In this document: positions 51,290 to 56,502 of the stretch, in pieces
How positions within the stretch are numbered: position 1 is the first letter of the stretch
Layout of the letters: every line of letters starts with the position of its first letter
DNA from: Lentisphaerae bacterium GWF2_50_93
Lineage (GTDB): Bacteria > Verrucomicrobiota > Lentisphaeria > Victivallales > GWF2-50-93
Length of the DNA: 64,000 nt
Direction of reading: 5' to 3'
Assembly: GCA_001804815.1 (NCBI GenBank)
Contig: MHBI01000082.1
Location: forward strand, 1-64,000
The notes under the pieces: generated by a model
What the model saw: the letters and a program-made list of their open reading frames with translations, nothing else
Told to the model about the DNA's origin: nothing
Databases searched by the model: none
Program-made: the position numbers and the translations under genes

Positions 51290-53446
51290 TTATGCGTTTA
51301 TGACTTTCTTGATTTCCTGTGCGAGGCCTATCATTGAGTAAGGCTTCTGGATGAAGGCGTTCACCCCCATCGTCAGGACATCCTCGATGCGCTTGTCCTT
51401 CTTGAATCCTGAGACAAGCAGCACCTTGACATCGGGATTTATCTTCTTCATTTCAATATACGCTTCGCGTCCGGACATCTTGGGCATCGCCATGTCGAGG
51501 AGTACGGCCTTAATCCTGGACGCATTCTCCCTGTAGACGCTTACAGTCTGCTCGCCGTCCTCGGCAAATACAACCTCATAGCCAAGCTTGGTAAGGATGC
51601 TGTTCGCTGTCTTCCGCATGATCTGTTCGTCGTCGGCGACGAGTATGAGGCCGGTGCCGTCGGGAATCTGGTCTTCCGCCATGGCCTCTGGTTCAACAAT
51701 TCTCTGCTGCTCCTCTGCAACGGTGAATTCCGGCAGGAACACGTTGAATCTGGAACCGATTCCAGGCCTGGTTTCAACCTCTATGAATCCATTGTGCTGG
51801 CGGATTATGTCGTTTGCAATCGTAAGTCCGAGGCCGGTCGCCTGCATTTGTGATTTTGTCGTATAGAAAGGATCGAATATCTTTCCGATAGCATCGGGTT
51901 CCATGCCTACGCCCGTATCGGACACTGAAACGATCCAGTAAGCCTGTCCGATCGCCTGCGGGTGAAGGGAGCGGTAGGCCCTGTCGGGATAAATCTTGTC
52001 GATTGACAATGTGAGCGTGCCGCCCTGCTCCTCCTCGGGCTTCATGATTGTCATTGCCTGCACGGCATTGTCGCAGAGGTTCAGGAGAACCTGTTCTACA
52101 AGCGCTGGATCCGCCTTGGTCATAGCCTTGACATTGTAGATCTCGCCGACCAGCTCGATCCTCTTGTCTGCAGTGTTCTGGCAGATCTTGAGGATGTGCT
52201 GTACGACTCCGTTGAGATCGATGTTGCCCAGGCATATCTCATGTTTCTGGGCGATCGACAGAAGCTGCTGGACCATTACGACGGCCTTCTCCGCGGAACT
52301 TTCGATGACATCCATGTTGTTCCTGATCTCGTCGAGGTTTCCGGCGTTGCTCTCCAGTGAATATTTCATCATCGTTATCGTTCCGGTGATGGCGCCCAGC
52401 GCGTTGTTGAAATCGTTTGAGAGGCCGCTCATGAGATTTTCAACGATCTGCATCTTCTGCGCCTGGCGCATCTGGCGTTCCTTCATCTCCTGGGTGGTTA
52501 TGTCCTCCAGCAGCAGTACAACGCCATTGATGCCGGGGGCATAGCTCATCTTGATGTTGATGTATCTTTCACTGCCGTTGATGTTGACATGCTCCTTGGA
52601 GAACTCGCAGGAGCGCTGCAGCTGGTAGATCTTCTCATATTCAGTATGATAGGGTTTCAGGAACGGAAGAAGCTCCCATATGTTCTGTCCAATCGCCTTG
52701 TCCGCCATGAGCGTGAAATATTTCTCCGCATACCTGTTCCACTGGGCGACATTCTCCTCGGAGTTCACGAAGATGAGCACAGAGTTGATCGAGTTCAGAA
52801 TCGTCGTAAGGTTGTTCTTCGAATTCTCAAGGGCCATTTCCATGTCGACGCGGCCGGAGACAAACTTCCGTATCTGATAGACGATGAATCCGAAAAGCCC
52901 GAGTATGTTCAACACAAGAATTATATACAGGATCTTGAAGACCAGCAGCTTGGTTGAAACCATCTCCCCCAGATCCCTTTCAATCCTTTCAATTGCGCCC
53001 GACAAGTCAGTATATGAATTATTGAAATCATCGATGAGTTTTTTCTTCTCCGGCGTCATCTTGTCTTCGGCCGCCATGTAGAGCTTCAGCATTGCCTCCT
53101 TGTAGACGTTCAGCTTGCCCTCTATTGTCCCGCTTTCCCCAGTCTGCTTCAAAGTCAGGCAATTCTTCCTTGCGCTGTTTATGACGTCCCACGCGACGTT
53201 CATGTCCTTGTCGGAGTATCCGCTCATGATTTCCCTGAACAGGAGATTGGCGTTTGTAGCCTTGAGCTTGATATTTATCGCGGCGCTGTTCAATGACGTA
53301 TACTTGTCGCTCATGCCGATGATGGTGAAATACGCATAGATGTTAATCCCGGTCATGAAGATAAAGGCGATCGTAAGGAATCCTGAAGTCTTGATGAAGT
53401 CATCGTTCATGGATATGCTATGTCTCTGGAGTTTTGGATTCAGCAT
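51290..53446 (-). CDS. hybrid histidine kinase with receiver, missing phospho-acceptor His
   Basis: A 718-residue inner-membrane protein: span 1 (TIAFIFMTGINIYAYFTIIG), a helical periplasmic region to about 165, span 2 (ILYIILVLNILGLFGFIVY), a PAS domain (about 210-320), a DHp/ATPase core and a receiver at the C-terminus. The H-box reads GLSNDFNNALG, with Asn (codon AAC, 52415-52417) where active kinases have His. N (NLCDNAVQAM), G1 (DTGVGM) and G2 (GLGL) boxes and the receiver (LLDMAMP, Lys in QKPY) are intact. AAGGA lies before the ATG at 53446. It overlaps the upstream kinase stop. Confidence 0.85.
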   Translation of the reverse strand: MLNPKLQRHSISMNDDFIKTSGFLTIAFIFMTGINIYAYFTIIGMSDKYTSLNSAAINIKLKATNANLLFREIMSGYSDKDMNVAWDVINSARKNCLTLKQTGESGTIEGKLNVYKEAMLKLYMAAEDKMTPEKKKLIDDFNNSYTDLSGAIERIERDLGEMVSTKLLVFKILYIILVLNILGLFGFIVYQIRKFVSGRVDMEMALENSKNNLTTILNSINSVLIFVNSEENVAQWNRYAEKYFTLMADKAIGQNIWELLPFLKPYHTEYEKIYQLQRSCEFSKEHVNINGSERYINIKMSYAPGINGVVLLLEDITTQEMKERQMRQAQKMQIVENLMSGLSNDFNNALGAITGTITMMKYSLESNAGNLDEIRNNMDVIESSAEKAVVMVQQLLSIAQKHEICLGNIDLNGVVQHILKICQNTADKRIELVGEIYNVKAMTKADPALVEQVLLNLCDNAVQAMTIMKPEEEQGGTLTLSIDKIYPDRAYRSLHPQAIGQAYWIVSVSDTGVGMEPDAIGKIFDPFYTTKSQMQATGLGLTIANDIIRQHNGFIEVETRPGIGSRFNVFLPEFTVAEEQQRIVEPEAMAEDQIPDGTGLILVADDEQIMRKTANSILTKLGYEVVFAEDGEQTVSVYRENASRIKAVLLDMAMPKMSGREAYIEMKKINPDVKVLLVSGFKKDKRIEDVLTMGVNAFIQKPYSMIGLAQEIKKVINA

Positions 53447-53451
53447 GGAAA

Positions 53452-54750
53452 TCATCCTTCTTGATTGTTTATTTGGACTTCCCCCTCGCCGCCCTCGGCA
53501 AGAGGCAGAAAAACAAAGAACACAGAACCTGCACCCGGCTCCGAAAACAAATCTATGAAGCCCTTGTGCTCCTTCACGATATTATAGACCATCGACAGGC
53601 CTAGTCCAGTCCCCCTTTTTTCTTTTGTAGTGAAAAACGGGTCGAATATCCTGGCCATCACCTCTTTTGTCATCCCGACTCCTGAATCGGATACGCTCAC
53701 CAGCCAGTAGTATCCTTCCTTGGCATCCGGTATTATTCCGCACATGTTCGGCCCGACATATATCTTCTCCAGGGAAACCCCCAGTATCCCGCCCTTCTCA
53801 TCCTCCTCCTTCTTCATGATCGTCATCGCATGCGACGCGTTTATGCAGAGGTTGAGGAGAACCTGCTCCAGTTGCGTCAGGGAAGCCTTGACCATCGCCT
53901 TCTCCACCCTTATCTCGGCTATCATCTCAATTGTCTTCGGCAGCGTGTTGCCGCATATCCTGATCACATTCCTTAGCGCCGCAACCAAATCCACCTCCGC
54001 AAATGACAGCTCCTTCCTCCTTGATATCGAAAGAAGCTGTTCGACTATGTCCGCCCCACGGTTTGCGGATTCCTCGATTATCTCCAGGTCGTCCTTCACC
54101 TGGCCCCGGAGCGACTCAACTGTGAGCTTCTGATTGCCCAGCGAGAATTTGATGGATTCCGCAGTCGCCTTTATGCCGTTGATGACATTGTTGAAATCAT
54201 GGGACAGCCCGGCCGCAAGAGTGCCGACTATGTCCATCTTCTGCGAACGCCTTATGTATTGCTCCTTCTTTTCCTGCTCTGTTACATCATCGATGATTAT
54301 TACCGCACCATTGCCGCTCCCTGAGCATGGACATACAGATATGTCGATGAATTTACTGTCCGCACCCTTTAATTCGATTCTTCTCAGAATCAGCGGCTTT
54401 CCATCAGCCATCGATTTCTCGATTGAAGTTCTGTTGTCAAGCAGAAACGGTGCCAAGCTCCATAGGATCTGGCACTCACATGCGGAATCCGGTCCAAAAA
54501 AGCTTTTTGCAGAGCTGTTGAGCACGCACACCCTGAAGCCGGAGTCGACTATGATCATTATGTACGGTATGGCTTCGAAGACGTCGTGATATGAAATGAC
54601 GAACGCCTCCTGGCCCTCATCCGCGGGTTTGATTGCATTATCCAACTTTGACCTTATCAGTAGTTTATCTTTCTGTGATATACCCTCTAATATATTATCC
54701 GAAATCAAATTACTCAACACACGCCATTTGATTTTCTTCCGACTTATCAT
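53452..54750 (-). CDS. PAS-domain sensor histidine kinase
   Basis: A 432-residue cytoplasmic kinase without a signal or membrane span. A PAS domain (VFEAIPYIMIIVDSGFRVCV, about 57-155) leads to the DHp helix with an intact H-box (GLSHDFNNVI, His184), then the ATPase boxes NLCINASHAM, SDSGVGM and GTGLGLSMV. It is closely related in sequence to the C-terminal half of the next gene. There is no receiver of its own and no separate response regulator in the window, so its phosphate may pass to the receiver of the downstream degenerate kinase. The ends overlap, so they are co-translated. Confidence 0.88.
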   Translation of the reverse strand: MISRKKIKWRVLSNLISDNILEGISQKDKLLIRSKLDNAIKPADEGQEAFVISYHDVFEAIPYIMIIVDSGFRVCVLNSSAKSFFGPDSACECQILWSLAPFLLDNRTSIEKSMADGKPLILRRIELKGADSKFIDISVCPCSGSGNGAVIIIDDVTEQEKKEQYIRRSQKMDIVGTLAAGLSHDFNNVINGIKATAESIKFSLGNQKLTVESLRGQVKDDLEIIEESANRGADIVEQLLSISRRKELSFAEVDLVAALRNVIRICGNTLPKTIEMIAEIRVEKAMVKASLTQLEQVLLNLCINASHAMTIMKKEEDEKGGILGVSLEKIYVGPNMCGIIPDAKEGYYWLVSVSDSGVGMTKEVMARIFDPFFTTKEKRGTGLGLSMVYNIVKEHKGFIDLFSEPGAGSVFFVFLPLAEGGEGEVQINNQEG

Positions 54751-54813: not shown

Positions 54814-56502
54814 GTGCCTGATAAAAATTCGATGCCCGGAAAAATGCTCGCATGGCCGCTCTTCGGAGCCGGAATGGAAAACCTCGGAAAGAACAACCAG
54901 CCCTGCACCGTGGATGTCCCATCCATCGGCGACGATGAACTCCTGGTCAAGATCGACGCCATCGGCCTCTGCTTCTCAGACGTGAAACTGATCCGCGCAG
55001 GCAAGGACCATCCGCGCGTAGTCTCCCCCGACCTCGCCACTCAGCCAGTCATTCCCGGACACGAAGCCGTGATGACAATCGTCAGGACCGGCAACAAAGT
55101 CTCTGACAAGTTCAAGGTTGGACAGCGTTTCATAATCCAGGCTGACATCTACATCAAAGGCAAAGGCTTCGCATACGGATACGCGATCGACGGCGGCATG
55201 GCTGAATACAGCAGGATTGACCAGCGCGTGTTGAACGGCGACGAAGGCTGCTATCTCCTTCCCCTCGCCGATTCCATCCCCGCAGGCATCGCCGCACTCA
55301 TCGAACCCTGGACCTGCGTCATCGCAAGCTACATGATCGAAAACAGGAAAGCCCCTTTGAAGGGCGGCTCGATCCTCATAGCCTGCGAACCCGGCAACAA
55401 CACATCCTACGTTCCCGGCAAGCTCCTCGTCGACGCCAAGCCAAGGGTGATTTCAGGTTTGAACCTCAGCAGCCAGACCATCGAAGTGCTCCGGAAGCAA
55501 GTCCCTTCCGCCAGGATCGACATACTGAAGTCAATTCCTGAAAAAGGTACTTTCGACGATATCTTCATCTGCGAAGTCCGCGCCAGGCAGGACGCAGAGA
55601 AGATTGCGAAACTCGCAAACCGCAACGGTGTCATAAACTTCGTCGGGAACTATCCTGACGAACCGTGGTCCTTCGACATCGGTGGCATCCATTACAACGG
55701 CTGGTACTACCAGGGCACGAAATCGAATTCCCTCTCCGATGCGTACGGCAAGAATGTCAGGAGCAAGCTGAAAAAAGGTGGAACCTGCTGGCTTGTCGGC
55801 GGCGCAGGTGCAATGGGGCAGATGCACACACAGCTTGCAGTTGAATCGCCCGAAGGACCGTCGCGGATCCTCATGACCGACATGGACGACACGAGGCTCA
55901 AGCATGTCTGCGAACTCCTTGCCGACAAGATCAAGGAAAGAAAAATAGAATTCAAGACGCTCAATCCCAAATCATTCCCATCTCCCGCCGCGTTCGAGGC
56001 GGAAGTTGCGAAGTTCGCAGAAAAATCGGAAGGCTTCGACGACATAGTGATGCTTGTCCCAGTGATACCTGTCGTAAACTCGTCTGCACCGTTCCTGAAA
56101 AAGCATGGCCTCATGAACATATTCGCTGGAATTCCGGCGGGCAAGGAAGGACTTCTGAACGTGAGGAAGATTGCACGTGAAGGCGCACGCTACATCGGTT
56201 CGAGCGGCAGCCTGACAGCGCATCTCCGCCACACCTTGAAGCTTGTCGAGGAAAAGAAGCTCAATCCGGCGACAGCCCTCGCCGCCATCGGCGGGATGCA
56301 GGATCTCAAGAAAGGCCTTGAAGCCGTGGCCGACGCAAAGTTCCCCGGCAAGACCGTCATATTCCCGCACTGCGAATTCCCGGTGACTCCCATCGAGAAA
56401 ATATCCGACCTCTCTCCGGAACTGGCTGCGACGCTGTCGAAGGACGGCTCGTACACAGTAGAGACGGAGAAACTGCTGTTCGAGAAGTTCGGGAAGAAAT
56501 AA
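54814..56502 (+). CDS. large zinc-type alcohol dehydrogenase-like protein
   Basis: A 562-residue protein of the medium-chain dehydrogenase superfamily. The N-terminal catalytic domain has LVKIDAIGLCFSDVKLIRAG, PVIPGHEAVMTIVRTG and GQRFIIQADIYIKGKGFAYG. The nucleotide fold follows as GGTCWLVGGAGAMGQMHTQLA, with ILMTDMDDTRLKH. It is about 200 residues longer than ordinary members, with an extra central block (VISGLNLSSQTIEVLRKQVP) that itself resembles a Rossmann segment. Zinc ligands are only partly visible (Cys53, GHE). Similar long proteins occur in other sugar-degrading PVC bacteria. Substrate unknown. Confidence 0.82.
   Translation: MPDKNSMPGKMLAWPLFGAGMENLGKNNQPCTVDVPSIGDDELLVKIDAIGLCFSDVKLIRAGKDHPRVVSPDLATQPVIPGHEAVMTIVRTGNKVSDKFKVGQRFIIQADIYIKGKGFAYGYAIDGGMAEYSRIDQRVLNGDEGCYLLPLADSIPAGIAALIEPWTCVIASYMIENRKAPLKGGSILIACEPGNNTSYVPGKLLVDAKPRVISGLNLSSQTIEVLRKQVPSARIDILKSIPEKGTFDDIFICEVRARQDAEKIAKLANRNGVINFVGNYPDEPWSFDIGGIHYNGWYYQGTKSNSLSDAYGKNVRSKLKKGGTCWLVGGAGAMGQMHTQLAVESPEGPSRILMTDMDDTRLKHVCELLADKIKERKIEFKTLNPKSFPSPAAFEAEVAKFAEKSEGFDDIVMLVPVIPVVNSSAPFLKKHGLMNIFAGIPAGKEGLLNVRKIAREGARYIGSSGSLTAHLRHTLKLVEEKKLNPATALAAIGGMQDLKKGLEAVADAKFPGKTVIFPHCEFPVTPIEKISDLSPELAATLSKDGSYTVETEKLLFEKFGKK

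Follow-up and report, generated by a model that had tools for sequence, protein, structure and literature searches.

Histidine kinases are usually taught as self-sufficient homodimers, and Rv0600c/Rv0601c is a split kinase. In group A Streptococcus, the adjacent sensor kinases FasB and FasC heterodimerise, and the kinase domain of one has been proposed to transfer phosphate to the DHp His of its partner, in which the kinase domain is dispensable (PMC12675982). The phospho-accepting His and the ATPase reside on different proteins in CheA3/CheA4 of Rhodobacter sphaeroides, neither of which autophosphorylates alone (PMC3591291). DivL of Caulobacter, which has Tyr in place of the DHp His and retains the kinase boxes, acts on a pathway with the hybrid kinase CckA, itself equipped with both His and receiver (PMC4211667). 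RetS inhibits or dephosphorylates GacS, and both of these also homodimerise (PMC12675982).

The window analysed here, a 64,000-nucleotide stretch of the Lentisphaerae bacterium GWF2_50_93 genome (G000), carries two kinase genes, referred to as HK1 and HK2, on its minus strand. HK1 (53452..54750, 432 aa) encodes a soluble PAS-DHp-CA histidine kinase, in which Pfam identified PAS-like, HisKA, and HATPase_c domains and no receiver, and no transmembrane segment was seen. Its His184 (codon 54199..54201, within AGLSHDFNN) is followed by the acidic residue, and the N, G1, F, and G2 boxes of the HATPase_c domain (residues 292-418, 53497..53877) are intact in the alignment, as in HisKA-type histidine kinases of the PAS/HDFNN class. 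All nine HK1-type proteins aligned possess this His. With its ATPase intact, HK1 could also autophosphorylate, perhaps as a homodimer.

HK2 (51290..53455, minus strand, 721 aa as listed) is a membrane kinase, in which a sensor composed of two hydrophobic segments around an all-helical extracytoplasmic region (approximately residues 27-195, 52871..53377) precedes a PAS domain (approximately residues 217-320, 52496..52807), a DHp region defined by alignment (approximately residues 328-405, 52241..52474), a HATPase_c domain (residues 449-576, 51728..52111), and a receiver (residues 604-715, 51311..51646). The sensor region gave no match in Pfam, which recognized PAS, a weak HisKA (18.3 bits, under the cut-off of 26.9), HATPase_c, and Response_reg. 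At the position of the phospho-accepting His of HisKA-type kinases, HK2 has Asn347 (SGLSNDFNN, codon AAC at 52415..52417). The ATP-binding N, G1, F, and G2 boxes are all present, and the receiver has the acidic pair, phospho-Asp, Ser switch residue, and Lys expected of a hybrid kinase. Both proteins thus proved to be as the sequence-only reading had described them, a receiver-less kinase with GLSHDFNN upstream of a membrane hybrid with GLSNDFNN; the paralogy that it had noted was likewise confirmed, the cores being 40% identical and HK1 being the best match of HK2 in the genome. An AlphaFold model of HK2 built from a six-sequence alignment (mean pLDDT 57, pTM 0.30) was too poor for any structural claim beyond the all-helical nature of the sensor.

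The translation of HK2 probably starts at the second in-frame ATG (M4, 53444..53446, minus strand; 718 aa) rather than at the first, since position 53446 is preceded by the better ribosome-binding sequence, AAGAAGGA, and the HK2 of G002, one of three other species of the window's genus (G001-G003), begins at the equivalent Met. The 4-bp ATGA overlap from which coupled production of the two proteins had been argued depends on the choice of start codon. In the relatives, the order and strand of HK1 and HK2 are kept and the overlap is not, the gaps being 62 bp in G002, 41 bp in G003, 289 bp in G001, 18 bp in G020, and 81 bp in G013; what survives of that argument is the shared order, strand, and close spacing. 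Reading of the loci revealed no output regulator beside the pair, as had been stated. The gene on the HK1 side (54814-56502, plus strand) is divergently transcribed and encodes a zinc-dehydrogenase-like protein of 562 aa with NCBIfam matches only under cut-off; each of the four species of the genus has it next to HK1, at 85-87% identity, the other flank of the pair not being conserved in G001. This neighbour may be a regulatory target or may merely reflect local synteny.

A sequencing error or a change confined to a single strain, the circumstance named in advance as fatal to the model, was ruled out as the origin of the Asn by its presence in relatives. The H/N pair occurs in G001-G003 as well (68-86% identity), so that the Asn is found in four species of the genus, and it recurs in G020, which belongs to a different family of the window's order, and in G055; G020 and G055 represent two other genera of the order. 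Within the window genome itself, His occupies the H position in all 24 other kinases whose H position could be aligned among the search matches. In G020, as in the genus, the Asn is accompanied by an H-type HK1. The covariation of H and N with gene pairing, a survey of which had been suggested, was imperfect: the adjacent pair of G013 has His in both proteins, the N-type HK2 of G055 co-occurs with an H-type HK1 located on a different contig, and seven genomes of family f4, described below, carry a His-less HK2 with no partner.

To survey the family, 20 HK2 proteins with the common sensor arrangement were gathered from the window's order; no HK2 relative outside the order was found at E <= 1e-80 in a 388-genome sample of the phylum, and a contig scan for relatives matched only the two closest ones, both named Lentisphaerae MAGs. 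His is absent in 17 of the 20 proteins, the site being occupied by N (6), H (3), R (3), A (2), and G, S, D, K, V, or M (one each). The N-box Asn, the G1 Asp and two Gly, the F-box Phe, and two G2 Gly are nevertheless present in every one of them. When the motif columns were left out of the tree, parsimony required at least three changes of His state; a single ancestral loss of His is less favoured, but the AU test did not reject it (p = 0.08). Two of the three H-type members, those of G030 and G012 (listed as L067:1727-3880 and L069:5772-7925), read HSFNN, with Ser replacing the catalytic acid after His, which may impair autophosphorylation by another route. Separately, G021 harbours a lone kinase with a receiver (L078:5266-6846) that has Asn at the His site (CICNNFNN) and lies on its own long branch.

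The diversity of residues at the His site could be taken to mean that the Asn is a product of decay and that HK2 is a drifting or redundant kinase heading for loss. This explanation is very improbable and already disfavoured, given the intact reading frames, the conserved boxes, and the finding that all HK2 domains, even the DHp, are under purifying selection in comparisons of species separated by dS values of 0.7 or more. Within the genus, the Asn-bearing DHp of HK2 showed 90-94% identity and dN/dS of 0.03-0.06, against 76-88% and 0.04-0.13 for the His-bearing DHp of HK1, and no part of HK2, or hardly any, was better conserved than the His-less DHp. In the same comparisons, the dN/dS of the HK2 receiver was 0.02-0.08, and the CA domains of HK1 and HK2 behaved alike (omega approximately 0.04-0.10), many dS values exceeding 1 and these estimates being imprecise to that extent. 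The low dN/dS and high identity of the HK2 DHp indicated that the loss of His did not relax the domain.

The equal constraint on both CA domains, together with the intact ATPase of HK1, means that HK2 need not be the sole kinase. It is conceivable that HK1 is an ordinary homodimeric kinase, whose own ATPase phosphorylates His184 and whose phosphate passes to the receiver of HK2, the latter serving as a membrane receptor that is not catalytic towards HK1 and integrates the signal through an ATP-bound DHp/CA and the receiver. That HK1 retains His, acid, N, G1, F, and G2 alike, that its CA is under selection as strong as that on the HK2 CA, and that HK2 contributes the only adjacent receiver all accord with such an arrangement; it leaves unexplained, however, why all 17 His-less HK2 proteins retained the ATPase boxes, and we consider it unlikely, though the foremost competitor of the heteromer favoured below.

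A different gene arrangement, which provides the strongest evidence for a heteromer, was observed in G004, G005, G006, and G007, which represent other genera of the window's family. No HK1 orthologue was found in these four genomes. Their HK2 proteins have G, K, D, or S at the His site and lack the receiver, and each gene is followed 23-38 bp on, on the same strand, by an HEIR-type kinase, from a lineage other than that of HK1, consisting of one transmembrane helix, HisKA, HATPase_c, and a receiver, with no sensor domain. By gene content, the pair thus still comprises one membrane sensor, one His, and one receiver, even though a new partner has taken the place of HK1 and the receiver now belongs to the other protein. 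The closest relative of this substitute partner in the window genome (40% identity) is a 678-aa hybrid kinase encoded on the same contig beyond the window, approximately 21 kb from the pair (G000:C82:75418-76587 / L095:11410-13446), the DHp of which reads SHQFRN.

The division of residues is most complete in G005. There, the DHp His (MMHEIRS) of the partner and its receiver are retained, and its ATPase has lost the Asn of the N-box (ENA to SYA), both glycines of G1 (DSGAG to DSSSI), and a Gly of G2 (LGL to LNL). The N-box Asn and the G1 DxGxG are present in all 24 homologues of the partner from the order; the G2 loss weighs less, as G2 is variable in the HEIR-type lineage. The CA domain of the G005 partner is only 29-34% identical to those of the other three partners, which share 45-57% among themselves, and its receiver is 56-61% identical to theirs. 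The accompanying HK2 has Lys at the His site, carries all ATPase boxes, and has a CA domain whose conservation (51-55% identity) is similar to that seen in the other genera. By sequence, His and ATPase would here lie on different proteins, as in a split histidine kinase, and these residue losses predict that neither protein autophosphorylates by itself. The simplest working arrangement would be for the HK2 ATPase to phosphorylate the partner's His in trans. The homodimeric reading of HK1 offers no account of this pair, whose His-bearing member lacks a usable ATPase. An artefact of two frameshifts in the partner was considered and thought unlikely, because the flanking words (DS..IS.EE, RFT, DFT, SGNVRL) keep to the reading frame in the alignment and are followed by a conserved receiver; the case comes from one draft genome. 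The G005 partner might presumably also be read as a ChpT/Spo0B-like phosphotransferase, although its phosphate source would then still have to be found.

The opposite situation, an HK2 with no partner, was encountered in the seven f4 genomes (G032, G029, G024, G068, G066, G050, and G061; loci L075, L076, L077, L079, L084, L085, and L086), in which neither an HK1 orthologue nor an adjacent kinase was found. These HK2 proteins are His-less with intact ATPase boxes, and their receivers have lost the Ser/Thr switch residue (P, V, or Q instead) and, in some, acidic residues as well. The receivers are intact in all nine other HK2 proteins that carry one. Such decay would be expected if the HK2 receiver takes its phosphate from the His of a partner; since f4 is one clade, it counts as one event. 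In G012, where the receiver is intact and the HK1 orthologue is likewise absent, HK2 keeps its His. The His-less clade shows that the HK2 family can have another role.

Retention of the ATPase in f4 with no adjacent partner is the main evidence that HK2 may act as a regulator, that is, as a DivL- or RetS-like pseudokinase, whose DHp would bind a partner kinase or a phosphorylated receiver, with ATP binding as a conformational switch, and which would stimulate or inhibit HK1 with no phosphotransfer between them. DivL keeps its kinase motifs except the His and does not autophosphorylate (PMC4211667), RetS forms heterodimers with GacS and so inhibits it (PMC12189002), and f4 proteins devoid of both the His and the receiver switch residue still have their CA boxes, suggesting a role for ATP binding apart from phosphotransfer. 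On the other hand, the receiver is fully intact in every HK2 accompanied by an H-type HK1, and the G005 operon would hold no kinase at all under such a scheme. We therefore regard a purely regulatory HK2 as quite unlikely for the window pair, and as ranking after self-phosphorylation by HK1.

Considering the residue losses and retentions, the gene linkage, the selection on the domains, and the partner replacement demonstrated by sequence comparison, we favour the interpretation that the two proteins make up one heteromeric and partly split sensor kinase, with a probability of roughly 0.55. The physical heteromer, the direction of phosphotransfer, and the identity of signal and output are inferences. 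HK2 would sense at the membrane and contribute both the ATPase and the receiver. Its DHp would dock with the partner, to which the 90-94% identity of this His-less domain is an indirect pointer, and the Asn would preclude phosphorylation at that position; HK1 would supply the phospho-accepting His184. Upon a signal, the ATPase of HK2, and possibly that of HK1 too, would phosphorylate His184, from which phosphate would move to the Asp of the HK2 receiver and on to an unlinked output. In the sister genera, the receiver-less HK2 lineage would work with the different, sensor-less kinase carrying both His and receiver, and in G005 the loss of the partner's ATPase would have made the split fully reciprocal.

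This heteromer, proposed in the sequence-only reading, gained support from the conservation of the Asn, the repeated loss of His only in HK2, the selection on both the His-less DHp and the ATPase, the co-occurrence in G055 of an unlinked N-type HK2 with an H-type HK1, and the G005 partner with no functional ATPase. It was weakened by the intact ATPase of HK1, the imperfect covariation, the partnerless His-less HK2 proteins of f4, the reliance on one draft genome for G005, and the precedent of DivL, in which all boxes exist with no useful kinase activity (PMC4211667). More tentatively, and at somewhat less than even odds, the HK2 lineage as a whole may have repeatedly lost its His and become a dedicated ATPase subunit phosphorylating an adjacent His-bearing kinase, with a swap of partners between the window's genus, where it is paired with a paralogous PAS kinase, and the sister genera, where a sensor-less hybrid from a separate lineage has that place, and with an obligate reciprocal split in G005.

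Among the described systems, FasB/FasC is the closest to HK1/HK2 in working, being a heterodimer with proposed trans-phosphorylation. Both FasB and FasC, however, are polytopic membrane kinases with a putative His in each DHp, no receiver, and an adjacent DNA-binding response regulator, FasA, whereas in HK1/HK2 the DHp His is missing from the ATPase partner, which is a receiver-bearing hybrid, and no output regulator lies alongside. CheA3/CheA4 is the closest in the division of residues, yet it belongs to the CheA family, has a separate P1 domain, and lacks whole domains, in contrast to the point and motif losses of these DHp/CA kinases; the window HK1 still has an intact ATPase, and only the G005 pair is fully reciprocal. 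DivL and RetS/GacS are the closest regulatory alternatives. DivL resembles HK2 in its replaced His and retained boxes, but it interacts with DivK~P, is a poor binder of ATP, is not known to phosphorylate CckA, has Tyr rather than Asn, and is alphaproteobacterial; HK2 falls outside the DivL family, which is defined by alphaproteobacterial orthology and Tyr, rarely Ala, at the His site, as HK2 has Asn and its relatives at E <= 1e-80 in the phylum sample lie in the window's own order. The CckA models NF046020 and NF046026 (NCBIfam) gave 219 and 211 bits over the core only, under the 1000-bit cut-off. RetS/GacS is similar to the proposed pair in being a heterodimer of two hybrid-type kinases (PMC12189002). 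These comparisons did not assign the window pair to any of the four systems and suggest a new variant of heteromeric or split kinase.

In the literature compared here, few natural pairs of DHp-type kinases divide the labour between them. The order provides a natural series, from G013 with His in both proteins, through the window pair with one His-less member, to G004, G006, and G007 with a new partner and a relocated receiver, and finally to the reciprocal loss in G005, by which the evolution of an obligate heteromeric kinase becomes directly testable. It also advises caution in annotation, in that a 'His-less' kinase should not be called dead by default when its ATPase boxes are intact.
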